DNA of 56,868 nt, taken from Bacillota bacterium. GTDB lineage: Bacteria; Bacillota; Sulfobacillia; Sulfobacillales; Sulfobacillaceae. The DNA lies in the NCBI GenBank assembly GCA_021821465.1, contig JAKACM010000020.1, positions 1 through 56,868 on the forward strand, written 5' to 3'. Below are positions 22,879 through 54,986 of this stretch, one piece after another (position 1 is the stretch's first letter; each line of letters begins with the position of its first letter). Position numbers and translations under genes: made by a program. The notes under the pieces were generated by a model. That model saw nothing but the letters and a program-made list of their open reading frames with translations. It had not been told where the DNA came from and made no database searches.

Positions 22879-24651
22879 ATGCGCAAAATTCCGCAAGACA
22901 TCTTTGAACCATTTGAGCAAATTTATGCGGTGGACGGTATGTTTCAACAAAAAATGCAAGAGCATCTGGATCAGTTAGTTAAGCCGGTTGGCAGTTTGGG
23001 ACATATGGAAGGTTTGGCATGCCAAGTCGCAGGGATCCAAAAAACGATAAATATTGAGGTCGACCCGGCCATCGCCTTGGTGTACGCGGGTGATCATGGC
23101 GTAGCGGACGAAGGGGTCTCTCAATATTCTCGCGATGTCACGGCACAAATGATGGATGCTTACCAAAGACAGCGGGCTGCCATTTCTGTGCTGGCGCGGC
23201 AGGCGGGATGTTCCGTTCAAATCATTGACGTCGGCGTCCACGGAGTATGGAAAGATGGGAATCAGAATGGAACGGTAATATCTCGTAAGGTCCGCAGGGG
23301 TACCAGAAATTTTGTTCACGAACCTGCCATGACGGACAAAGAATGCTTGCAAGCATTGCAAGTGGGTATAGATAGGGCAGCTGAAGCTGTTCAAGAGGGC
23401 TACCGAACTATTCTGCTCGGGGAGATCGGAATCGGGAATACGACCGTGGCGGCAGCCCTGGGATCAGCGCTCTTGCAGGAAGCTCCTCGGAATGTGACAG
23501 GTCGTGGGAGCGGAGTGGATCACTCCGGATGGGAACGAAAAGTTCAGGCGATAGACGAGACGTTAGCACGACATATGAACTCTGATCTGGAACCATTTGA
23601 GATGCTCACCCGTTTTGGCGGGTTGGAGGTAGCCGCCATGGTTGGCACGATTTTGGAAGCCGCCCGTCAGCGAATAATTGTGGTATTGGATGGGTATCTC
23701 ACCGGAATTGCCGCACTCCTTGCCGTTCGCATGGCACCTAACAGCGTAGGCTATCTCATTGCCTCGCATAAATCTCACGAGCCGGGTCATCAGCGAGTTC
23801 TCGCGGCCTTGGGACTTTGGCCTCTATTGGATTGGCAAATGAGGTTAGGTGAATCCAGTGGCGCGGCCATGGTTTTACCCTTGTTGCGACAAAGCTGTGC
23901 CGTGTCAACGGATATGGCCACGTTTAATGAAGCGGGAGTCAATTCCGGAGATTCTTTTGATCCTGTTGATGAGAAATTGCTGACCCGTTCGACCAAGGAA
24001 CCGTATCCCTTTTCGTTGCCGGAGCGAATGGCTGTGTATCGTGCTATCGAAAGCCGCCGTGATATTCGTCACTTCCTTCCCGATTCTGTGCCGGATGACA
24101 CTTTGGCAAGGTTGCTTCAGGCCGCACATCACGCCCCTTCAGTAGGCTATTCCCAACCATGGGACTTTACTATTGTTACCGATCCGGAAATAAAAGCGCG
24201 ACTGAAAGATCTTGCCGATCGCGAACGTCAAGTTCAGAGTCTGTATTTTGACGACGAAATTTCAGCCTTTTATCTCAGATTGAAATTGGAAGGACTCACT
24301 GAAGCCCCAGTCGTTTTGGTGATTACGGCCGATCCTGAACGGGGGGGCAGTGAAATTCTGGGACGGCACACCATGGAAGAAACCACTTTATATTCTGTGG
24401 CCTGTGCAGTGGAAAATCTATGGCTGGCAGCGCGTGCAGAGGGTTTAGCAGTGGGATGGGTAAGTTTGTTTGAAAAGCGTCACTTGCGACGGGTCTTGGG
24501 CATGCCAAGTCACATCGAACCGGTGGCGGTATTATGCATCGGTTATACCGATCATTATCCTGATGAACCGCAGCTGAAGAAGGTCGGTTGGGCCAAGTCG
24601 GAATCATTAGCCGGTCTCATACACTGGCAACGATGGGATACAATTCAATGA
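22879..24651 (+). CDS. CobT-BluB fusion: DMB phosphoribosyltransferase and DMB synthase
   Basis: A 590-residue fusion of two enzymes that make and attach the lower ligand of vitamin B12. Residues about 10-355 are CobT, which joins dimethylbenzimidazole (DMB) to nicotinate mononucleotide: AGDHGVADEGVSQY (70-83), GEIGIGNTT (181-189) and RLGESSGAA with Glu325 at the catalytic-base position. Residues about 380-590 are BluB, the flavin-destroying DMB synthase: ESRRDIRHFLPDSVPDD, AAHHAPSVGYSQPW (415-428) and AEGLAVGWVS. A polar linker (about 356-378) joins them. GGGGGAAG precedes the ATG. It is controlled by the upstream riboswitch. Cytosolic. Confidence 0.95.
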   Translation: MRKIPQDIFEPFEQIYAVDGMFQQKMQEHLDQLVKPVGSLGHMEGLACQVAGIQKTINIEVDPAIALVYAGDHGVADEGVSQYSRDVTAQMMDAYQRQRAAISVLARQAGCSVQIIDVGVHGVWKDGNQNGTVISRKVRRGTRNFVHEPAMTDKECLQALQVGIDRAAEAVQEGYRTILLGEIGIGNTTVAAALGSALLQEAPRNVTGRGSGVDHSGWERKVQAIDETLARHMNSDLEPFEMLTRFGGLEVAAMVGTILEAARQRIIVVLDGYLTGIAALLAVRMAPNSVGYLIASHKSHEPGHQRVLAALGLWPLLDWQMRLGESSGAAMVLPLLRQSCAVSTDMATFNEAGVNSGDSFDPVDEKLLTRSTKEPYPFSLPERMAVYRAIESRRDIRHFLPDSVPDDTLARLLQAAHHAPSVGYSQPWDFTIVTDPEIKARLKDLADRERQVQSLYFDDEISAFYLRLKLEGLTEAPVVLVITADPERGGSEILGRHTMEETTLYSVACAVENLWLAARAEGLAVGWVSLFEKRHLRRVLGMPSHIEPVAVLCIGYTDHYPDEPQLKKVGWAKSESLAGLIHWQRWDTIQ

Positions 24652-45755: not shown

Positions 45756-46559
45756 TTAGACGTGCATCCACAACGAGTATAGGAGTCACATACTTAAAGA
45801 GACAAGAGGGTTTTAACGCCATATCCCATGACACGGCCAGGATGGGGTAGGGATAGCACGGTGGAACATGTGCAGTGACAATATTGAAGCATTAGCAATA
45901 GGGCCTGGCGTCAACACGGTATACAAGTACAAATTCGATTCGTTAATTCTTTACCTGCCTGTCATTTTCCTGGGATAAATTGGTGAATGTTCTAGGGAAG
46001 AGACGACACGGAAACCTTCAGTGATTGCTCGCCGTCCTTGTTTTGTATCGAGCAGGGGTATGCTTTCTCGTAGACTTTTTCAGTCCGTGATTCAGACCTG
46101 GAAAAACTCGTGGTGTGAGCTATGGATTTTATGAATTAATTCTCCAATTGGACAGGCCGTCCCATGTGTACACAATATTGTGCATAAAAGTTTTCCATGA
46201 CAAAATTTGATCTGCTGAAGAATTTGTCCAACGAGCAGACAAGCGGGCAAAAAATGATCTGCCAGCACTTTAGAGAGAAGATGCCGCTGCATAGATCCAA
46301 ATTTACAGCCAGTCAATACGGCTGGCTTTAGAAGCGGAGATTTCGCTGCCCAAAAAATAGAGACTGTCGTTCGCACCGGGACGGTGATCCATCTCACAAC
46401 GACAAGCAGGGGGATTCAATACACTGGGACTGGGCACATTGTTGTTCGATTGCTACCGGCAGAGGAGCCTGATTCATCATTAATCCGTGATTAAAATGTG
46501 AGGGATGATTCCGGAATTTCCGTCCCCTCGGGAGCTCGCTAGTTTGGGAGGGAAAACCA
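45756..46559. other. Long gap with possible gene remnants
   Basis: No intact gene. On the plus strand around 46270-46500 an open frame ends with TGTVIHLTTTSRGIQYTGTG and stops at 46494, but stops lie upstream and no start is visible; it may be a gene tail. On the minus strand 46092-46397 is open without a ribosome binding site. The motif at 46384 is listed separately. Confidence 0.35.
46384..46397. promoter_or_regulatory. GTGA-N6-TCAC site 1
   Basis: GGTGATCCATCTCACA contains GTGA-N6-TCAC, the Crp/Fnr-family dyad. It lies 163 bases upstream of the gene at 46560. Confidence 0.5.
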
Positions 46560-46898
46560 ATGGTTGAAGTAAAATCGGTGAATTGGAGCCATGACGGATG
46601 GGAAATCCATTTGGCCATTAAGGAAGGGGTATATCACTTAGATAGCTATCCCGTGAGAATTTCCCACTTGGCTTTTGATCAGGATATATCGACCCATAAG
46701 GATTTGGCCACAGTAGTCAATGTGTTGATACGTGATCACATGCGTCGGGGATGCTTGCCACCACATGGAATGGTTTTGGATTGGTCTCGGGCCGCCAACG
46801 TTTGCCAAACAGACACGGAAGAAGCCATGGCGCCTTGCAATCGCATTGCGGCCAGTCGCTTACCTTGGAGCGGCGGTGGGGTCTCGGATCATTTTTGA
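46560..46898 (+). CDS. Hypothetical protein of the redox island
   Basis: A 112-residue soluble protein. GGGAGGG ends 7 bases before the ATG, a convincing start. The N-terminal half is beta-rich by pattern (VEVKSVNWSHDGWEIHLAIK), the middle is helical (KDLATVVNVLIRDHM), and three cysteines occur at about 60-92. I do not recognise the family. The upstream Crp/Fnr-like site groups it with the genes that follow. Confidence 0.65.
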   Translation: MVEVKSVNWSHDGWEIHLAIKEGVYHLDSYPVRISHLAFDQDISTHKDLATVVNVLIRDHMRRGCLPPHGMVLDWSRAANVCQTDTEEAMAPCNRIAASRLPWSGGGVSDHF

Positions 46899-47054
46899 AT
46901 TCAGTTAGTGTGTAGCCTACATCGCACAGAGGGATGAATGAAAACGCGCCATGCGATAGGCTTGCCATCAAGGTTGCACGGTTACAGGCGGTTCAAACTG
47001 AAAAGAGGCGCCGGGAGAATGATCTGACTGCACGATCTCCCGGCGTCTTTGATG

Positions 47055-47294
47055 TCAGTCTTTTGTAACGAGGATGGCAAAACGTTCCGGACCTTGTTCT
47101 TGATAGTTAATCGAAAACACACCGGGTTGTTCCGCTTCCAATTGATAAAGTAAGGGTTTAGGGTCATGATCATTGATCAGTAGAGCCGTAAATCCCTGGG
47201 GCAAGGCATCAAAGACGGATAAAATAGTCTGATGTTTTACCGGCGGAGGCAGAATCGGTGCGTTGATAATGACTGCTGGATCTGAATTAGCCAT
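47055..47294 (-). CDS. DUF2249 protein
   Basis: A 79-residue DUF2249 domain. The core is diagnostic: LPPPVKHQTILSVFDAL, then LINDHDPKPLLYQLEAEQPG and a short beta end. GGGAG lies upstream of the ATG at 47294; the frame extends further upstream but that part overlaps the promoter motif. DUF2249 proteins are small alpha/beta proteins of unknown biochemical role, often near hemerythrin, nitrogen-oxide or Fe-S genes. A paralogue is at 53794. Confidence 0.88.
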   Translation of the reverse strand: MANSDPAVIINAPILPPPVKHQTILSVFDALPQGFTALLINDHDPKPLLYQLEAEQPGVFSINYQEQGPERFAILVTKD

Positions 47295-47908
47295 AAATAT
47301 GTCAACTCCCTTAAATAGATGCGAACTAGAGATTTTATGATGGATGCGGGTCTGACGGCCAATGACATCATCATCAGTAAAGACAGTTCTTCGGGTAACC
47401 GAATGCACAGTCAACCCTTCTTGAAGAGGGTACAAAAGACTAGAACAAGAATCTGTGACATTGATCACCCCACAAAATTGATGCTATGGTCTTTGACGAA
47501 ACGAGCATGGGACAAAAAGTCCTTAAACGAAAATGTGGATTGCAATAATTCTGAATAACTATAAGGGATCGTCAGAGGATTAAAGTCTATGATGCCTTGA
47601 GACGGTTCCTCGGTCGGTTTCAGGTATTCTATAATACGGCAGATCATCAGAATATCTCTTTGGTTCAGTTCAAGATGGACGTGATTATTACATTCTTCTA
47701 AAGTGGCGGGGGATATGTTTGCTTGAAAAAAAGTAGGAAGTCTTAGACCTGGTCCACTTTAAAGTGGCAGTGTTTGCCCAAGATGGAAAGATGGAGTGTT
47801 GGTGTCGGACCGAGTGCGCAACTTCTTAGGCAGGTGGTGAGTACAGCCGTGTGAGACTATTCAGGGTACAGACTGCTCGCCAATATTAGGCTACGAATTG
47901 TGGGAGGA
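47295..47908. other. Promoter region of DUF2249 gene and palindrome
   Basis: A stretch of 614 bp. Contains the Crp/Fnr-like site at 47455 and a 14-bp perfect palindrome, CCACTTTAAAGTGG, at 47754-47767 followed by CAG. Frames on the minus strand (47465-47647) look spurious. Confidence 0.4.
47455..47468. promoter_or_regulatory. GTGA-N6-TCAC site 2
   Basis: TGTGACATTGATCACC matches the Crp consensus TGTGA-N6-TCACA at 9 of 10 fixed positions. It is 161 bases upstream of the DUF2249 start at 47294. Confidence 0.6.
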
Positions 47909-48256
47909 CTATTCATCAACAAGGTGATGCGGAAGGGAGTTAAAATCGATCATGTCATCGGGCGGCAACACATTCTGAAGCCATTCGGCCGCCTCGTAGA
48001 GGACTTTCTTATTGAGGTAATAATAGTGCCAAGTCCGTTGCCGAGCTTGGGAGATTAGCCCGGCTTGAGATAAAATCCTTAGGTGGCGAGAAATCGTAGA
48101 TTGGGGTAAAGCCAAATACCGTGCAATGTCTTGCACGCAGATGCCACGTACGTGATCCTCCTTGTTTTTGCAAAACTTCTGAGGGTCATGGAGGACTTCA
48201 AGAATCCGTCGCCTCAACGGGTCGGCCAGGGCCTTAAAAATTTCATCGATGTTGAT
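47909..48256 (-). CDS. ArsR-family transcriptional regulator
   Basis: A winged-helix regulator of about 116 residues. The N-terminal helix reads IFKALADPLRRRILEVLHDP, the classic ArsR start, so coding must extend beyond the TTG at 48217 usually chosen by frame rules. The HTH is IARYLALPQSTISRHLRIL, and the wing RQRTWHYYYLN. The only codon behind the ribosome binding site (AGGGAGG, 10 bases upstream) in frame is ATC at 48256; no ATG, GTG or TTG is available, so the true start is uncertain. Two cysteines (FCKNK... and GICVQDI) could sense metal, sulfur or redox state. Confidence 0.82.
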   Translation of the reverse strand: MNIDEIFKALADPLRRRILEVLHDPQKFCKNKEDHVRGICVQDIARYLALPQSTISRHLRILSQAGLISQARQRTWHYYYLNKKVLYEAAEWLQNVLPPDDMIDFNSLPHHLVDE

Positions 48257-48763
48257 AGCCTTTCTCCCTCCCTACGATGAGACATCTGATGAGGTTTATA
48301 TTATCAAAATTTATTTGTGTTGAGGTGTACCTTTGGATGCTCGGACGTATGTGTTATATGAACGAAACTTGCATTTCGCGTTAGTGAGGCACGCAAGGAT
48401 TAAGAAATCAGTCTGTCTAGAGATTTTGCAACAATTAACGCCGTGATTTTCATAGCGATATCACGGCCTGATTACAGTATAAGTGCGTCTATAACCGACA
48501 GTCTGTTCCTGTCGCTAGATCGAGGGTGGGCACCGCCGTTTACGACCCTTCGGTCAGTTCGGGGGCTTTCGCACATTATTGCTCTTCTCAGCCACCGGAC
48601 AGACCTCTAATGAGAATTTCTGTGTCCATTGCCGATGACAACCGGGAGTTGCAATAGGTCTCGAACCTTGCGTTGCCGGAAATGCATGTTGTAAAAGTGT
48701 CGCCGCTAGCTAGGTTATATTTGCGCATCTGGGTCTAATCAAGACCAATCATCGGCACACGTT
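48257..48763. other. Intergenic region upstream of the ArsR gene
   Basis: No gene supported. Just upstream of the ArsR start is an AT-rich stretch with GATGAG repeated as a direct pair (about 48277-48294) near a likely minus-strand promoter; this could be the ArsR operator, but the evidence is weak. Confidence 0.35.
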
Positions 48764-49240
48764 TCAATCGGATGAAGGATCATGCGACCGATGGGAATTC
48801 GAATGGTAGACACCAGTGTATTTGTGTAACAGCCCGTCAAATAACCGCTGATAGCGGATGGGAGACGATTTAAGATGGACGTAAACTTTTGCTGCCAATC
48901 TTGCGGCTCGTTCCTTGTCCTGTAGGGATATGACATCGAGTGCCTCTTTCATGGCGTCCATCAGATGGCGGAATTCTTCTTGTTTTTTTTCGACGGCCTG
49001 TTGAAAAGCTCTCGGATGAACAATCACCACGGCATGATTAGAGGATTGCATCTTGTCGACTGCAAGATCTTGGAGGCCATGCAGAAAATCATGGCCTTGC
49101 GTGGTGTTTTGCCAGTCAAAGCCTAGAACCTCATCGGCTGCTCCTTGCTCGACAAATGACCGTAGGACTTCCTCAGGTAAAGAATCACGAGTATTTGCGC
49201 CCATATCATACCACTGCGCTATCTTGAATGTATTGGTCAT
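48764..49240 (-). CDS. Hypothetical helical protein of the redox island
   Basis: A 158-residue soluble protein. AAAGGAAC precedes the ATG. The C-terminal two thirds form charged amphipathic helices (VEKKQEEFRHLMDAMKEAL, KERAARLAAKVYVHL), and the extreme C-terminus is His/Ser-rich. I recognise no family, although the helix-and-histidine composition recalls small carrier or hemerythrin-neighbour proteins; the metal-binding pattern of hemerythrin is not present. It is in the same orientation as the ArsR and DUF59 genes. Confidence 0.65.
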   Translation of the reverse strand: MTNTFKIAQWYDMGANTRDSLPEEVLRSFVEQGAADEVLGFDWQNTTQGHDFLHGLQDLAVDKMQSSNHAVVIVHPRAFQQAVEKKQEEFRHLMDAMKEALDVISLQDKERAARLAAKVYVHLKSSPIRYQRLFDGLLHKYTGVYHSNSHRSHDPSSD

Positions 49241-49424
49241 AGGGTCAGTTCCTTTTTTGATGGAGTAGAATTTGCCTCGAACGCATTCAGCCTAACGTGA
49301 AGAGGGACGTTTTTCCGCACATTCTTGACGTTATACCTATGACAATTCATACGAGAGAGGCATTCGGAAAAAACTTTTGGTAAATCAAATTCCGTTATTC
49401 CGACAAGCACCGTGCGCATTAGAT

Positions 49425-49730
49425 TTATGCAAAACCAAAATACTCTTTGGCGTCATCAGACATCATGGACGGATCCCATGGGGGAGACCAGACAACATCT
49501 ACGTTCGCATCTTGAATTCCTTCCACGCTCAGCAATCGCTCGTGGGCGCCTTCTTGAATATAGTTCGTCGCAGGGCAACCGGGGGTCGTCATGGTCATTA
49601 TCACATCCACGCGACTATCCTGAATGGTTATGCCATAGACAAGGCCCAAATCAACAATATTGTATCCCAGTTCCGGGTCTATTACGTCCTTCAGAGCCTC
49701 TTGAATAACTTCTTCGGTGATTTCACTCAT
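49425..49730 (-). CDS. DUF59/MIP18 family Fe-S assembly protein (SufT/PaaD-like)
   Basis: A 101-residue single-domain DUF59 protein. Conserved DPELGYNIVDLGLVYG and TTPGCP with its cysteine are clear, and the C-terminus (VVWSPPWDPSMMSDDAKEYFGF) fits the PaaD/SufT subgroup. Such proteins help mature Fe-S clusters or deliver them to targets. AGGAG stands 10 bases before the ATG at 49730. A Crp/Fnr-like site is 78 bases upstream. The Mrp-like carrier at 55354 and two ferredoxins are nearby, which supports an Fe-S role. Confidence 0.9.
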   Translation of the reverse strand: MSEITEEVIQEALKDVIDPELGYNIVDLGLVYGITIQDSRVDVIMTMTTPGCPATNYIQEGAHERLLSVEGIQDANVDVVWSPPWDPSMMSDDAKEYFGFA

Positions 49731-50099
49731 TCGAATTGCCGCTCCTCTCTTACGTATCAATCTTACCTCTTGTAGAGTATTGTGCCCCTAATCATTCTCT
49801 TTTTGTCGTGATCATGATCACGAATGTCACCCACGTAGTGTTCGGAAGAAAGAAGAGTCAAACGGAAGATTTGGCCACGCGAAGGGATTCGACTTTAAAC
49901 ATCCGAAAGGTCGATGGAAACCCTTAACCTCGGGTTAGACGGCGAGGTTCATGAGTTTAATAGCCCACCGGACGACAATCAAAGAATATCAGGTGAAAGG
50001 ACACAGCTGTTTTGTCATTACGACACAAAGTCAAACCGATTTCAACAGATGTTCTTATCGCACATTTTGTTGCTGTGATGTATTGTGAGTAACGTGAGA
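49731..50099. other. Control region of the DUF59 gene
   Basis: Holds the palindromic site at 49808 and otherwise only short frames. It runs into the HEARO RNA. Confidence 0.4.
49808..49821. promoter_or_regulatory. GTGA-N6-TCAC site 3 (perfect 16-bp palindrome)
   Basis: CGTGATCATGATCACG (49807-49822) is a perfect palindrome containing GTGA-N6-TCAC. It is 78 bases upstream of the DUF59 start at 49730. Confidence 0.65.
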
Positions 50100-50345
50100 T
50101 TTATTCAGCTCATTGAATCAATGAGGTCAATCACCCTGCCCTAAAGTGCGAGGCTTGAAAGAGCTTCAGATTGAATAGCCTCAGTGCTTCGAACACTACG
50201 TTGGGATCGTCACGACACACTGGGATGCGAGTCCTAGTTCCAGGCCCTATCGTCCGTGGTTAAAAGTCCTTTCGGGTAGGGATGGTGCTACAGGCATAAC
50301 AAGCGATTCCAACATTGGCGAAGGACAATTTACTAGGAAAGGAGA
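50100..50345 (+). ncRNA. HEARO / IscB omega RNA
   Basis: The 5' flank of the IscB gene matches, by recall, the HEARO RNA that serves as guide scaffold for IscB. Visible blocks in order: CCTGCCCTAAAGTGCGAGGC (about 50138-50157), the hairpin AGTG-CTTCGAA-CACT (50183-50197), ACGTTGGGATCGTCACGACA, AGTTCCAGGCCCTAT, CGTCCGTGGTTAAAAGTCC and GGATGGTGCTACAGGCATAA, ending next to the ribosome binding site of iscB. The usual position of the guide would be just 5' of about 50130, where a TCATTGA/TCAATGA inverted repeat occurs. The scaffold looks intact although the protein is truncated. Confidence 0.8.
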
Positions 50346-50353
50346 CAGGCGTA

Positions 50354-50686
50354 ATGCTCGTCTATGTGATCAACAAACACCGCCAACCCTTGATGCCTTG
50401 CTCTCCGAGAAAGGCTCGCCTGCTGCTGAAAGCAGAGAAGGCTAAAGTCATTCAACGCACGCCATTCACGATTCAATTGCTCTACGGCAGTGCCGATTAT
50501 AAACAACCGATCTCTTTTGGCGTGGATGCAGGCACAAAGCATATCGGCGTGTCCGCTACCACCGAAAAGCACGTGGTGTTTGAGGCCGAAGTGCAGCTTC
50601 GGACTGATATTCAGGACTTGCTTTCCACAACGCGCATCTACGCTCTTGATCCAAACAATGAAAGGAGGAGCGCCGTAAATTTCTGA
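50354..50686 (+). pseudogene. iscB: Truncated IscB (RNA-guided nuclease ancestor)
   Basis: Only the first 110 or so residues of IscB are present. The PLMP domain is visible (INKHRQPLMPCSPRKARLLL then KVIQRTPFTIQLLYG), and RuvC-I follows with its catalytic Asp in FGVDAGTKHIGVSA. The start of the bridge region is seen (VQLRTDIQDLLSTTRIY), then it breaks into unrelated residues and stops at 50686. The HNH nuclease domain, RuvC-II and RuvC-III are missing (a full IscB is about 400-500 residues). GGAG precedes the ATG at 50354. It is therefore inactive as a nuclease, but could still bind the upstream omega RNA if expressed. Confidence 0.85.
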
Positions 50687-50926
50687 TTGAAAAGCACATC
50701 CATTTTACCAGAGTGCGACGCCATTTTTTGCGATCGGGAACCGGTTGGGGTCAATTTTCCGAAACCCGTCCGGTTCATGCCCGGGAAGCCGCATGCTGTC
50801 GTGAAATCTTGGGGGAAAATTTTCTCCGGGGGTTTGCTAAGCCCGGTCCCTTAAGGATTCTACAACACCGGAAAAGCTCGAAATAGGATTGTCGCGAAGA
50901 ACCCCTGGAGCGAGAAGGGACATGAG

Positions 50927-51556
50927 ATGCAGAAGGATACAAGCCGAGACGATTGGCAAAGTTTGGAGCGGGTTTTTCGAACTTTTCCCTCAACGCTCAA
51001 ACAGCGGCGGGTGTGGCGTAAGCAGTCGGCGTCCGTGTACGAAAGTTTGCTGAACCATGGTCATCATGGTTTGCCTGCACTGATACCGGGTTTAGTTCAT
51101 GCCCGATTGGCTACGGCATTGTTGGTCGCAGGCTACCGCTCGAAGTCGCAATTGGCTTCCCGTTCATTTTTGTGTCTGGGTTGTCACGCTGGTCTAGAGG
51201 TGCGTATTTTGCGGGATTTTGGTGCCGGGCGTGCGGAAGGCATAGAAATTCGTGATGCTGTCGTTCAAGAAGGAATTTACCATCAATTAGTGCGAGCCGA
51301 TGAGATCCATATCGGCGATTTTTGGCACATATTATCAATGGATGCCGTCACGATCTGGAATGAGATCGTGGTACTTGCCCCCGAGGCTCTATCCTTAGGA
51401 AAACTGTGGGACACGGTCTGGGCTCATCTATCCCCATTAGGTCATTTGATTGTCGTAGCCCAGGATGCGGATTTACTGGATGTGCCCTCGCATATTCAGC
51501 ATGGAGAGGCCATGGAGGGCACCATGCAGTGGTATTTGGCAAGCAAAGGGCGTTAA
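50927..51556 (+). CDS. Hypothetical protein with methyltransferase-like fold
   Basis: A 209-residue protein. FLCLGCHAGLEVRILRDFGA followed by AEGIEIRDAVVQEG resembles motif I and the acidic strand-2 end of SAM-dependent methyltransferases, and ADEIHIGDFWHIL and HLSPLGHLIVVAQ resemble later strands. GAAGGGAC lies upstream of the ATG. The N-terminal 70 residues are basic and helical. No close family comes to mind. Activity uncertain. It follows the IscB remnant by 240 bp. Confidence 0.6.
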   Translation: MQKDTSRDDWQSLERVFRTFPSTLKQRRVWRKQSASVYESLLNHGHHGLPALIPGLVHARLATALLVAGYRSKSQLASRSFLCLGCHAGLEVRILRDFGAGRAEGIEIRDAVVQEGIYHQLVRADEIHIGDFWHILSMDAVTIWNEIVVLAPEALSLGKLWDTVWAHLSPLGHLIVVAQDADLLDVPSHIQHGEAMEGTMQWYLASKGR

Positions 51557-51914
51557 TTGTCTGACGATACCCAGGGGGGAGTTGTGTTAAACTCACTAAA
51601 TAGGAGAATAATACGAATTATTTAAACGTGATCACAATCACTTTCTTTTCCCCAACCCTACGCTACTGTGAACGAGGACCCTTAAAAGACTCTATCGCCA
51701 AAAGTGAACTTACCAACCGCAACCCGTCAACTTTTACGGTACACAAAAAGGGGTAGACGCCGTGCCATAAGGCTTAAAGTTATGGACTTTCCGTTGCTCT
51801 TGCGGGACTCATTGGCGTGGTGGCAAGTTTCCGGCGCTAATTCTCTGCAATTGATGCCCACCGCCAGGATGCATAAAGATCATCAACCGAAAAGATTGTG
51901 AGGGGGGATTAAGT
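51557..51914. other. Control region of the ferredoxin gene
   Basis: Contains the site at 51628; the rest is AT-rich without a credible gene (a 65-codon frame at 51704 lacks a site). Confidence 0.4.
51628..51641. promoter_or_regulatory. GTGA-N6-TCAC site 4
   Basis: ACGTGATCACAATCACTT contains GTGA-N6-TCAC and the stricter GTGAT-N4-ATCAC. It is 274 bases upstream of the ferredoxin GTG, so a long leader is implied if it acts there. Confidence 0.55.
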
Positions 51915-52196
51915 GTGGCTCACGTAATAACGCAACGGTGTGTCGGAGTCAAGGATCAGAGTTGTGTTGAGGTTTGTCCTGTTGATTGCATACATCCCGC
52001 CTCGGATTTGGACGGACAAGAGGCCTTCGATGCCGCTCCACAGCTTTATATTGATCCTGATGTTTGTATAGATTGTGGGGCATGCGTCCCTGCTTGTCCC
52101 GTGGAAGCCATCTTTTATCTCGACGATGTTCCCGAGGAATACTATGACGATATTGAGGCTAATCAGCAGTTTTATCGAACTTGGCCCCCAAGTTGA
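51915..52196 (+). CDS. Seven-iron (3Fe-4S/4Fe-4S) ferredoxin
   Basis: A 93-residue soluble electron carrier. The first cluster pattern is C-x7-C-x3-CP (CVGVKDQSCVEVCP) and the second is C-x2-C-x2-C-x3-CP (CIDCGACVPACP). The acidic C-terminus (LDDVPEEYYDDIEANQQFY) is typical of the 7Fe ferredoxins of actinobacteria and Firmicutes. The start is GTG at 51915 after GGGGGATT. Its partner reductase is not in the window. It may supply electrons or act with the Rieske protein at 53265. Confidence 0.93.
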   Translation: MAHVITQRCVGVKDQSCVEVCPVDCIHPASDLDGQEAFDAAPQLYIDPDVCIDCGACVPACPVEAIFYLDDVPEEYYDDIEANQQFYRTWPPS

Positions 52197-52322
52197 GGAA
52201 GATTGCCTTCGAACTCTTGTGCCTGAGGACCAGTGCGGAGTAGCATGTGGTATGGAAAAGGAATTTTTCCTAACCGGCAACGTGGGTGCTGCGTATGACT
52301 TTCAGAAGGCATACTTTCTGTG

Positions 52323-52349
52323 AGTGGCAGGAAGTTGTATACTGCCACT
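52323..52349. repeat. Hairpin downstream of the ferredoxin gene
   Basis: AGTGGCAG (52323-52330) and CTGCCACT (52342-52349) pair perfectly with an 11-base loop. The same AGTGGCAG follows the palindrome at 47754. It could be a terminator or a regulatory site. Confidence 0.45.
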
Positions 52350-52413
52350 ATTATGTATCGGATAAACGCATCGCAAATGGTGTTGGGTGGCGTTTAAAAT
52401 TCCGAGAGGAGTC

Positions 52414-52509
52414 ATGAACGCTACCCTAAAAATCGCAAACGAACCGGGATATATCTTGTCAGGAAACGTGATCAGTGTCTCAGAAGAGCAAAATAACGAG
52501 GCCGCATGA
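52414..52509 (+). CDS. Possible 31-residue microprotein
   Basis: ATG at 52414 preceded closely by AGAGGAG (spacing of 2 is short), 31 codons reading NATLKIANEPGYILSGNVIS then a Glu/Asn-rich end and TGA. No family known. It may be a leader peptide of the DUF302 gene 84 bp downstream. Weak evidence. Confidence 0.25.
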   Translation: MNATLKIANEPGYILSGNVISVSEEQNNEAA

Positions 52510-52593
52510 CGGGAACAAACGGTTAGAAGCTGAAGTGAGTTGTTCTCCGTGAGATTGTCTTACGGGGCATGAGAGAAGAGGAGTGGTCTCATA

Positions 52594-53013
52594 ATGTCTT
52601 TATCCTATCAAATTTATAAGTCCCATCTGAATCCGGAAGAGGTTGTCGTTCATTTGCGCCGTGCGGTGAGCAAGCGGAATTTAGTAGAGTATGCGGTAGT
52701 CGATCATCGTAAGGATATGTTGGAACGCCATGTGACCAATCCCCCATGGGCATATTCGGTAATCTTTGGGAGTCCTGTGGCAGGGGCCAAGTTTATGGAG
52801 AAGGCGCTGACAGCAGTGGCCGATTTGCCGGTTCGACTCGGTGTTTATGGCGATAAAGACGGTTCAACAATCGCTTATCACACCATGTCTTCTTTACTCC
52901 AAGCTCATCATGCCGATCTTTATCAGGCAGGGCAGGCAATTGATCAACTCGTAAAAGAACTGTGTGACGAGTCAGAAGCGAAGTTATCCGAAGAGACGAT
53001 GCCGCATTCATGA
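52594..53013 (+). CDS. DUF302 protein
   Basis: A 139-residue cytosolic protein of the DUF302 family. The pattern YSVIFGSPVAGAKFMEKAL, then AVADLPVRLGVYGDKDGSTI matches the DUF302 'FGNPxxG...DLPL' signature. Function in the family is unknown; it is often found with redox or sulfur genes. The C-terminus is extended and acidic. GAGAAGAGGAG precedes the ATG. Confidence 0.85.
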   Translation: MSLSYQIYKSHLNPEEVVVHLRRAVSKRNLVEYAVVDHRKDMLERHVTNPPWAYSVIFGSPVAGAKFMEKALTAVADLPVRLGVYGDKDGSTIAYHTMSSLLQAHHADLYQAGQAIDQLVKELCDESEAKLSEETMPHS

Positions 53014-53264
53014 GCCTGAGGATCATTATTCCCGGATATCGGCTCATCACCATACGGCTAAGGATTTATACTTTAGGGGGTCAGAAAATTGTCGTGGGTT
53101 TCCAATTTAAACTATGGTTACAAAGTTGAGGAAAAATACCGGGTAGCGCACCCATGATCAACAAGTGAGAGTTCTTCCGTGTCCATATGACCGACACGGA
53201 GAACATTTTTATGTGTTTGAACATTAAGGCCCTGGCTCTGCAACAATTTTGGCTGACCCACCTT

Positions 53265-53591
53265 TTACAGATCATCCGGGGATAAGTAAACTTCGTCATT
53301 TTCTACACGAACAGGAAAGACTTCAATGGGGGACACTGTAGGCATTTTTACGGCTTGACCGCTCCGTATGTCAAATTGCCCTCCGTGACGCGGACAAGTG
53401 ACAATATATCCATGGTAGGTACCTTCGCATAATGAGGCTTCAGCATGAGAGCATGTGTCATCGGTCGCGTAGACTACTCCATCAGTTCGGTAGAGAGCAA
53501 TCATACGGTCATTCAGCTCCACCAAATACGGAGTGGAAGCATCAATGTCTTGGACTTGCGCAACCATTGTCCATGTTTTGGGCAGTTTCAT
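53265..53591 (-). CDS. Rieske-type [2Fe-2S] ferredoxin
   Basis: A 108-residue small Rieske protein. The cluster ligands are C-x-H in DTCSHAEASLCEG and C-x2-H in VTCPRHGGQFD, as in the soluble ferredoxins of dioxygenase systems. The family donates electrons to oxygenases, or participates in assimilatory nitrite and other redox steps. AGGAG precedes the ATG at 53591, three codons into the longer frame. There is no oxygenase in the window. An ATTGAG-N9-CTCAAT repeat lies about 75 bases upstream. Confidence 0.92.
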   Translation of the reverse strand: MKLPKTWTMVAQVQDIDASTPYLVELNDRMIALYRTDGVVYATDDTCSHAEASLCEGTYHGYIVTCPRHGGQFDIRSGQAVKMPTVSPIEVFPVRVENDEVYLSPDDL

Positions 53592-53793
53592 GCTTCGCAA
53601 CTCCTTTTGAATTCCGGTCTCTCAATATTTGGGCCAATTTGTCGGAATACGTGTTATGCTTCCTCATTGAGATAATCTTCCTCAATTCCAGACTGAATCC
53701 GAAGACAAGCGCCCCGATCTATTTGGCTTTTCGTTCCAATTTCCATAGTCAACAACAATCTTGACGCCATGGAATTCTCAAAAGGTTCAATGA

Positions 53794-54057
53794 TTATTGG
53801 GATTTGGGAAGCACGCGGGTGACAGAGACATAGAACAAAGAATTTTTTTCACTAGGGGGTGTACGCGAAAAGACTCCTGGTTGTTCGGCATCAATTTGAT
53901 AAAATAAAGGTTTAGGGTCGTGATCATTGATAAGGAGCAAAGTATGATGAATAGGCAACACGTCTAACAAGGAAAAAATTACTTGATGGCGAATACTGGC
54001 CGGAAATTGCCAAGCATTTAATGTTACAGCTTCATAAGAATCTTGCATCTTAGACAC
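53794..54057 (-). CDS. DUF2249 protein, second copy
   Basis: An 87-residue DUF2249 protein, paralogue of the one at 47055. The shared core is SIRHQVIFSLLDVLPIHHTL, then INDHDPKPLFYQIDAEQPG, with a longer tail. The start is GTG at 54057, 7 bases after AGGAGG. A Crp/Fnr-like site is 73 bases upstream, in the space shared with the divergent adenosyltransferase gene. Confidence 0.88.
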   Translation of the reverse strand: MSKMQDSYEAVTLNAWQFPASIRHQVIFSLLDVLPIHHTLLLINDHDPKPLFYQIDAEQPGVFSRTPPSEKNSLFYVSVTRVLPKSQ

Positions 54058-54129
54058 AACCCAACCTCCTTCAACGTGTGCAGGAAACCGCCTGCAAAGA
54101 AAGTATATGGTACCGATCACGAAGACACT

Positions 54130-54143
54130 GTGATGAATATCAC
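54130..54143. promoter_or_regulatory. GTGA-N6-TCAC site 5
   Basis: TGTGATGAATATCACC contains GTGA-N6-TCAC and GTGAT-N4-ATCAC. It is 73 bases before the DUF2249 GTG on the minus strand, and about 280 before the adenosyltransferase on the plus strand. Confidence 0.6.
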
Positions 54144-54425
54144 CGTTCAACAACAACGGGTCATAAGCATGACTAAGTGCTCCGACCGACTCATGTGCCG
54201 GAAAGGCCCAAAGTTCCGGAACGTGATGGGTGTTCTTATGTTCTGAGTTTTTATGTGATTTGATCCCATTGTATCTGAGTCAGGGACTAAGAAGAGAGTT
54301 ATGGGAGATCAGGACGAGCTTGGTGATATTCATCACCGTCGAAAAGAAGGCGGTGTTCTAATGATGATTGTGCGGCCGTGGTCATTGATGGCGGTCCTAC
54401 GCATAACATGTGGGGAGGTAGGCTC

Positions 54426-54986
54426 GTGAAAATATATACACGCCATGGGGATACAGGTAAGACTCGGGTTTTGGGGAGCGGTCGTCGGTACAAGGATAAC
54501 GTGCGTGTTCAGGCATATGGAACCGTAGACGAAGCCGGAGCCTTGTTAGGCGTAGCCATGAGCATGCTAGGAGGGATCGATGGAGATATTCGAGAAATTT
54601 TGGACGATGTGCAGCAGCTACTCTGGGATATCGGAGCAGACCTGGCTCGTGTAGACAATCCTAAATATCCCTACCGGACCCCGGAGGATGCGGCCTCTCA
54701 TCTGGAACCAGTGATTGATCGCCTTCAAAATGAATTGCCGGTCATTTCGAAGTTCATCATTCGAGGAGGTACACCCGCCGGTGCCTTGCTGCATTTATCC
54801 TGTACGGTTGTACGTCGTGCCGAACGTGATGTGGTCCGCTTGCAGCAGTTTGAAACCATCCATCCGCCTATTTTAGTGTATCTGAACCGATTGTCTGATT
54901 TGCTTTTTGTTTTGGCACGAACCGTCAATCATCGGGCCGGGGTCATTGAGATGGATTATGAGCACAGCGCGCATGTGTTTCGCTAA
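54426..54986 (+). CDS. PduO-type cobalamin adenosyltransferase
   Basis: A 186-residue enzyme that transfers adenosine from ATP to cobalamin to make coenzyme B12. IYTRHGDTGKTRVLGSGRRY (N-terminus, ATP-binding), RVQAYGTVDEAGALLG and IRGGTPAGALLHLSCTVVRR then AERDVVRLQQ match the PduO/MMAB fold. GGGGAGG precedes GTG 54426. It complements the CobT-BluB fusion at 22.9 kb. Its location inside the redox island is unexplained. Confidence 0.93.
   Translation: MKIYTRHGDTGKTRVLGSGRRYKDNVRVQAYGTVDEAGALLGVAMSMLGGIDGDIREILDDVQQLLWDIGADLARVDNPKYPYRTPEDAASHLEPVIDRLQNELPVISKFIIRGGTPAGALLHLSCTVVRRAERDVVRLQQFETIHPPILVYLNRLSDLLFVLARTVNHRAGVIEMDYEHSAHVFR

Follow-up and report, generated by a model that had tools for sequence, protein, structure and literature searches.

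A putative CRP-type regulon of DUF2249, iron-sulfur and nitrogen-oxide genes in Sulfobacillales

The window analysed here is a stretch of 56,868 nucleotides (positions 1 to 56,868 of contig JAKACM010000020.1) from a Bacillota bacterium of the order Sulfobacillales, and it carries an island of redox and iron-sulfur (Fe-S) genes among which the inverted repeat GTGA-N6-TCAC recurs. These sites quite likely serve as operators for an activator of the Crp/Fnr superfamily that has CRP-type specificity, works from a class II position and may play a role in nitrite or nitric oxide (NO) handling and metal centres. We infer direct binding, activation and the nitrite/NO and metal-centre role from DNA and protein sequences. 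The regulator, probably encoded natively by the Crp gene of contig C167, would bind approximately tGTGAYC-N2-GRTCAC centred at -41.5, and class II activation would raise expression of the DUF2249, cl7, ferredoxin and cupin genes; DUF59 and some other genes seem to rely on a different promoter geometry. The resulting regulon would handle nitrite and NO and maintain Fe-S or other metal centres at low oxygen.

The window contains seven GTGA-N6-TCAC matches in total (24059, 46384, 47455, 49808, 51628, 54130 and 54323), six of which are clustered within 8 kb. The original prediction had reported five of these (46384, 47455, 49808, 51628 and 54130), and all five are present where it placed them; it missed 54323 and also 24059, which is probably a chance match. 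Three of the five (49808, 51628 and 54130) fit the stricter form GTGAT-N4-ATCAC as described, and one perfect 16-bp palindrome, CGTGATCATGATCACG, lies at 49807-49822. In 100 dinucleotide shuffles the window gave a mean of 0.86 matches, a maximum of six and never seven. The genome's own density predicts approximately 0.18 matches per 8 kb. The motif is clustered and not evenly spread over the genome (G000; 4.96 Mb in 199 contigs, labelled C here, with retrieved loci labelled L), which has 114 matches to GTGA-N6-TCAC versus 59 to the reversed pattern and 13 matches to GTGAT-N4-ATCAC versus 1 in the control, four of the 13 being in the island. The working consensus given above, from which the 46384 site deviates at one position, was kept narrower than GTGA-N6-TCAC because the bare pattern also fits Rex-type GTGAA-N4-TTCAC sites.

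A further regularity is the distance from the site to a -10-like hexamer. Sites were collected as 147 oriented entries representing 124 distinct sites, with those between divergent genes counted in both directions. The hexamer TAnnnT begins after exactly 22 bases (N22) in 53 of the 147 entries, compared with a mean of 1.6 at other offsets, and is found at this spacing in 31 of 70 DUF2249 entries and 22 of 77 others. For CRP and FNR activators, -41.5 is the class II position. A TAnnnT hexamer at N22 would place the centre of the site at -41.5 and therefore predicts class II activator geometry. Within the window the N22 box is seen at four of the seven sites, namely those for cl7, both DUF2249 genes and the ferredoxin, and no TAnnnT occurs at N22 for 49808, 54323 or 24059. 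The composite of site, N22 and TAnnnT is found 15 times in the genome versus once in the control, with four of the 15 in the island. It is found 156 times versus 27 in the control across 42 genomes of the order, being present in 33 of them, and 16 times versus 4 in 19 genomes of other classes.

The motif is also conserved upstream of homologous genes in relatives. Neither of the two outcomes that would have refuted the original prediction, an even spread over the genome or a lack of such conservation, was therefore observed. DUF2249 was found in 45 of 61 searched genomes, including 40 of the 42 within the order. The upstream test drew on 34 genomes other than the window's own and covered 96 of more than 150 listed DUF2249 places, with each tandem gene represented by one domain and all places lying inside the retrieved stretches. 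A site was located within 500 bases upstream at 69 of the 96 places (68 of 87 in the order and 1 of 9 outside it), compared with 0 for the reversed pattern, 0 to 1 for spacers of N4, N5, N7 or N8, and 5 of 96 for downstream DNA. In the window's own genome, all eight DUF2249 matches, which include two in one tandem gene on C6, have a site upstream of the gene or apparent operon. Relatives of the first island DUF2249 protein (protein A) were compared at 78 named loci; a site was present within 400 bases in 24 of 26 from Sulfobacillus and its kin (L221-L246) and in 15 of 52 others. These 15 are all Bacillota by title; four are from Sulfobacillus-group assemblies (L262, L268, L283 and L289), and the remainder include Alicyclobacillus, Paenibacillus, Kyrpidia and Neobacillus. 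A TAnnnT hexamer at the N22 spacing accompanies the site in seven of these 15 loci. Pairwise alignments of the upstream DNA with G006, G005 and C94 are 60-69% identical and retain the GTGA-N6-TCAC frame at 47455, 49808, 54130 and 51628, most exactly at 47455 and 49808. The 47455 site is present in both G006 and G005, where the upstream DNA around it is 67-69% identical, and the 49808 counterpart is retained in G006 and C94.

A regulator encoded elsewhere in the genome had been proposed, and suitable genes exist. There are ten matches to HTH_Crp_2, of which four are above the cut-off (C150, C167, C111 and C43). The C43 match scores 27.0 bits and belongs to an open reading frame (ORF) that we take, from its sequence, to be a DtxR/MntR-type regulator. 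Two full-length Crp/Fnr genes remain, on C167 (PF00027, cNMP_binding, E=1.9e-16; PF13545, HTH_Crp_2, E=4.5e-15) and on C150 (E=1.9e-14 and E=3.8e-15, respectively). A search of this genome with the C167 protein returned C167, C150 and C111 only, and each of these stretches also carries DUF2249 with an upstream site. On C150 the order on one strand is site, cl7 paralogue, DUF2249, Crp, which suggests autoregulation. The C111 stretch (L044) has a shortened Crp-type gene with an in-frame stop, two DUF2249 genes that retain their sites, and integrase- or transposase-like ORFs close by; it may represent a degenerating duplicate of this locus. Across the order, a Crp orthologue is found in 35 of 40 DUF2249-bearing genomes versus 0 of 2 without DUF2249 (Fisher p=0.024). 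The window's own ArsR-family protein (47909-48217) was rejected as the regulator, as nothing ties it to the motif and it scores under the HTH_Crp_2 cut-off.

The family assignment of the original prediction holds, with the refinement that the recognition helix is of CRP type and not FNR type. RETxxR is present in 31 of 31 aligned regulators (gathered by BLAST, of 38 orthologous matches) and aligns with RETVGR of E. coli CRP. Judged from the helix (R180, E181, R185) and the GTGA half sites, the predicted DNA specificity is CRP-type. Rodionov et al. (PMC1274295) report a correlation of R180 and E181 with positions G3 and A6 in CRP-type (GTGA) operators. The aligned regulators share a G..IGIAG.WD...YP stretch and have no conserved cysteine among the 0-3 found per protein in the 31 sequences; FNR identity was rejected on the absence of a conserved 4Fe-4S cysteine cluster. 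The C167 protein is 25% identical to E. coli CRP. In CRP, cyclic AMP (cAMP) is contacted by E72, R82 and S83; the corresponding residues of C167 are A, P and A, and identity with cAMP-CRP was rejected accordingly.

Genes that repeatedly adjoin the sites encode DUF2249, cl7, DUF59, NnrS/CcoN-like membrane proteins, cupins, hemerythrin and ferredoxin, together with PduO in two genomes. A related island lies on contig C94, where four sites fall within 4 kb and one gene is NirK-like. The best PDB match of the NirK-like protein is 3x1e, "Nitrite reductase" (E=8e-59), and it scores 173 bits versus the TIGR02376 cut-off of 296. Of 13 loci with NirK-like genes, 9 have a site ahead of the gene, and within the order the figure is 7 of 10; this count omits L189 (31% identity), the weak matches L181-L185 and L190, and L186-L188, which are second pieces of counted loci. 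The hemerythrin resembles YtfE/RIC repair proteins weakly, at scores under the cut-off. For the family with 12 transmembrane (TM) segments, the plain label NnrS was rejected: one of six members matches it at E=5e-4, below the cut-off, and there are two weak COX1 matches. One profile of the 12-TM family matches cbb3 CcoN at 5e-10, and given these mixed NnrS, COX1 and CcoN matches the family is named NnrS/CcoN-like.

Published work ties DUF2249 to nitrogen oxides. DUF2249 genes of Haloferax are induced during denitrification (PMC11218638), and in Thermus the CRP-like DnrT is required for the DUF2249 proteins encoded by the drp genes (PMC6282519). Strains of S. acidophilus are reported to have copper nitrite reductases, and other Sulfobacillus species are either described as lacking them or not credited with them (PMC4378227). 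Nitrite/NO handling is favoured as the function, with modest confidence, because of the NirK-like, hemerythrin and NnrS/CcoN-like targets and these published DUF2249 links. The original prediction had named oxygen, NO or sulfur stress; of these, nitrite/NO fits best, and no specific support for sulfur stress emerged.

Several observations weigh against the proposed regulon or limit its reach. An excess of the bare GTGAYNNNNRTCAC pattern also occurs in other classes (283 vs 83) and in G014 (19 vs 4) and G022 (26 vs 11), and therefore specificity lies in the upstream placement and the composite alone. Neither a Crp orthologue nor a composite is found in G014 and G022, the only order genomes that lack DUF2249; seven DUF2249-bearing order genomes (G010, G018, G030, G034, G036, G040 and G041) have no composite either, so the absence in G014 and G022 alone is weak evidence. 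In some of those seven the hexamer starts with CA instead of TA. The N22 -10 box is found in 0 of 10 DUF59, 0 of 7 DUF2249-C and 0 of 6 hemerythrin entries, and no Crp orthologue was detected in 5 of the 40 DUF2249 genomes (G007, G010, G016, G024 and G028). Regarding the nitrite role, no NirK match in any of the 61 genomes reaches the TIGR02376 cut-off, and clear NirK-like matches occur in 10 of 42 order genomes versus 40 of 42 for DUF2249. Finally, tetranucleotide usage correlates with that of the window at only r=0.71 for C94 (L047 1-12000) and r=0.74 for C150 (L043), and the assembly has 5.11% contamination. The other sampled contigs have r=0.86-0.95, except the short C71 at 0.70, and C167 fits the window (r=0.947). 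Given the odd usage and the contamination, C94 and C150 may not be native: they would be either DNA that this genome took up, perhaps recently, or contigs from a different Sulfobacillales member.

The sites could also be explained in other ways. It is possible, if rather unlikely, that the same CRP-type regulon responds to low oxygen or general redox state and that the nitrogen-oxide genes simply ride along in the minority of species that have them. The near-universal DUF2249 set against the few NirK-bearing genomes would suit such a signal, as would the sites ahead of ferredoxin, SdhB-like and NuoF-like genes and the Alicyclobacillus and Paenibacillus DUF2249 loci with the same site and -10 box; however, the regulator lacks FNR-type cysteines, and its recurrent targets include the hemerythrin (weakly YtfE/RIC-like), NnrS/CcoN-like and NirK-like proteins. 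A classical cAMP-CRP carbon-control regulon is very improbable. It would account for the TGTGA-type half site, the RETxxR helix and the 25% identity to E. coli CRP, but not for the replaced cAMP contacts of C167 or for recurrent targets that, where identified, are not carbon-uptake genes.

Rex, an NADH/NAD-sensing repressor, deserves even less credit as the owner of the sites. The genome has one Rex N-terminal family match, and a Rex-like site, GTGAATTAGTTCAC (GTGAA-N4-TTCAC; L050 9281-9294 on C116), precedes an ORF that, by our reading of its sequence, is presumably cytochrome bd oxidase-like. The Rex operator consensus TTGTGAA-W4-TTCACAA (PMC2883068) contains GTGA-N6-TCAC, but position 5 is A in none of the 147 oriented entries, the seven window sites include no GTGAA-N4-TTCAC, and the -41.5 placement fits an activator. 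Rex was rejected for the island sites on the grounds that position 5 is never A. It is scarcely credible that the palindromes are chance occurrences or have a non-transcriptional role: the pattern does exceed its reversed control in other classes too, the 24059 match is intragenic and the composites on C102, C145 and C152 have no clear target, but the fixed spacing of the -10-like box, the placement upstream of one gene set and the persistence in upstream DNA that is only 60-69% identical all argue otherwise.

The island comprises genes for cl7, DUF2249, ArsR, cl20, DUF59, a protein at 50927, ferredoxin, DUF302, Rieske, a second DUF2249, a cobalamin adenosyltransferase and Mrp/NUBPL. The predicted site GTGATCCATCTCAC (46384-46397, plus strand) is followed at N22 by the -10-like TACACT (46420-46425) for the cl7 gene (46560-46898, plus strand), which encodes 112 amino acids without a Pfam match. 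DUF2249 protein A (47055-47294, minus strand; 79 amino acids, E=4.4e-20) has the predicted site GTGATCAATGTCAC (minus-strand reading; 47455-47468) with TACCCT at N22 (47427-47432). The window scan found no GTGA-N6-TCAC site between the ArsR-family gene (47909-48217, minus strand) and 49808. The cl20 gene (48764-49240, minus strand) lies in this interval and encodes a protein of 158 amino acids without a Pfam or NCBIfam match, a candidate accessory protein. Its orthologue in G006 is preceded by a site. Relatives of cl20 (cl20/cl26) occur in several of the loci. The DUF59 or SufT-like Fe-S assembly protein (49425-49760, minus strand; likely ATG start 49730) has the predicted palindromic site GTGATCATGATCAC upstream (49808-49821, minus strand), without TAnnnT at N22.

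Further along the island, an ORF fragment with an early end lies at 50315-50760, and we take it to resemble the N-terminal RRXRR part of IscB or transposon-associated proteins. The protein at 50927 has no Pfam match. The predicted site GTGATCACAATCAC (51628-51641, plus strand), with TACTGT at N22 (51664-51669), is 273 bp ahead of the 4Fe-4S ferredoxin ORF (51915-52196, plus strand). A decayed cupin remnant between this site and the ferredoxin, suspected from the C94 gene order, was discarded after tblastn gave no support. The Rieske 2Fe-2S gene (53265-53600, minus strand) is downstream of DUF2249 protein B (53794-54048, minus strand; 84 amino acids). As the likely ATG start of protein B is 54048, the predicted site GTGATATTCATCAC (minus-strand reading; 54130-54143) is upstream of this gene and not within it, with TATACT at N22 (54102-54107). 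The second site of this divergent region (54323-54336, plus strand) has no TAnnnT at N22 and is 42 bp ahead of the PduO-type cobalamin adenosyltransferase ORF (54378-54986, plus strand; E=2.2e-50), a homologue of which in G027 has two sites upstream. The 54130-54143 and 54323-54336 sequences are exact reverse complements, one operator in both orientations. The remaining match (24059-24072, strand not assigned), inside a CobT/nitroreductase ORF (22879-24651), probably lies outside the regulon.

Elsewhere in the genome, four of the 15 composites (C102, C138, C145 and C152) lie beyond the described loci. The C138 composite (L163) precedes an ABC-transporter ATPase gene, and cl28 ATPase relatives are near sites in other genomes; no clear target was found for the composites on C102, C145 and C152. 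The first 11,000 positions of C16 (L052) have four GTGA-N6-TCAC sites in 6.4 kb near SdhB-like, radical-SAM, NuoF-like and mevalonate-pathway-like genes, and the site at 740 on the minus strand has an N22 -10 box.

Several known systems resemble the proposed CRP-type regulon. HcpR of Desulfovibrio is a Crp/Fnr-family regulator with the operator wTGTGAnnnnnnTCACAw, an R180/E181 helix, no Fe-S cysteines, a ferredoxin-like gene among its targets and a nitrogen-oxide network (PMC1274295). The likeness is one of operator, helix and targets, whereas the Sulfobacillus targets centre on DUF2249, cl7 and DUF59. In Thermus thermophilus, nitrate respiration involves the DUF2249 proteins DrpA and DrpB, whose expression requires CRP-like DnrT (PMC6282519); regulator and target families are alike, but Sulfobacillus genomes carry several DUF2249 genes apiece. 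DNR and NnrR are Crp/Fnr activators of nir, nor and, for NnrR, nnrS (PMC1274295), with the operators TTGATnnnnATCAA and ctTTGcgnnnncgCAAag, respectively, in place of the GTGA of the Sulfobacillus sites. Haloferax denitrification islands have DUF2249 beside nirK/nor and a promoter motif repeated over a denitrification-induced 12.5-kb island (PMC11218638), but the archaeal motif is CGAAYATDKTYG and the proposed regulators are of bacterioopsin type, not Crp/Fnr. A more speculative idea, which we hold doubtful, is that the Sulfobacillales regulators might form their own Fe-S-free, non-cAMP CRP-type class, whose ligand pocket would involve the conserved G..IGIAG.WD...YP stretch. The several DUF2249 paralogues under their control would then be partners in signalling or NO handling and exert feedback on the regulator, a role put forward for the Thermus Drp proteins.

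No earlier account of the regulon was found in titles and the opening parts of abstracts, in a search that mostly lay outside subscription journals. The regulon is a well-supported new case of a known type of network and represents no new kind of biology. It supplies an exact operator, a promoter geometry and a candidate regulator for acidophilic mine and bioleaching bacteria. It also gives DUF2249, cl7 and cl20 a shared regulatory signature and hence a testable function, which may be nitrite/NO handling and the upkeep of metal centres.

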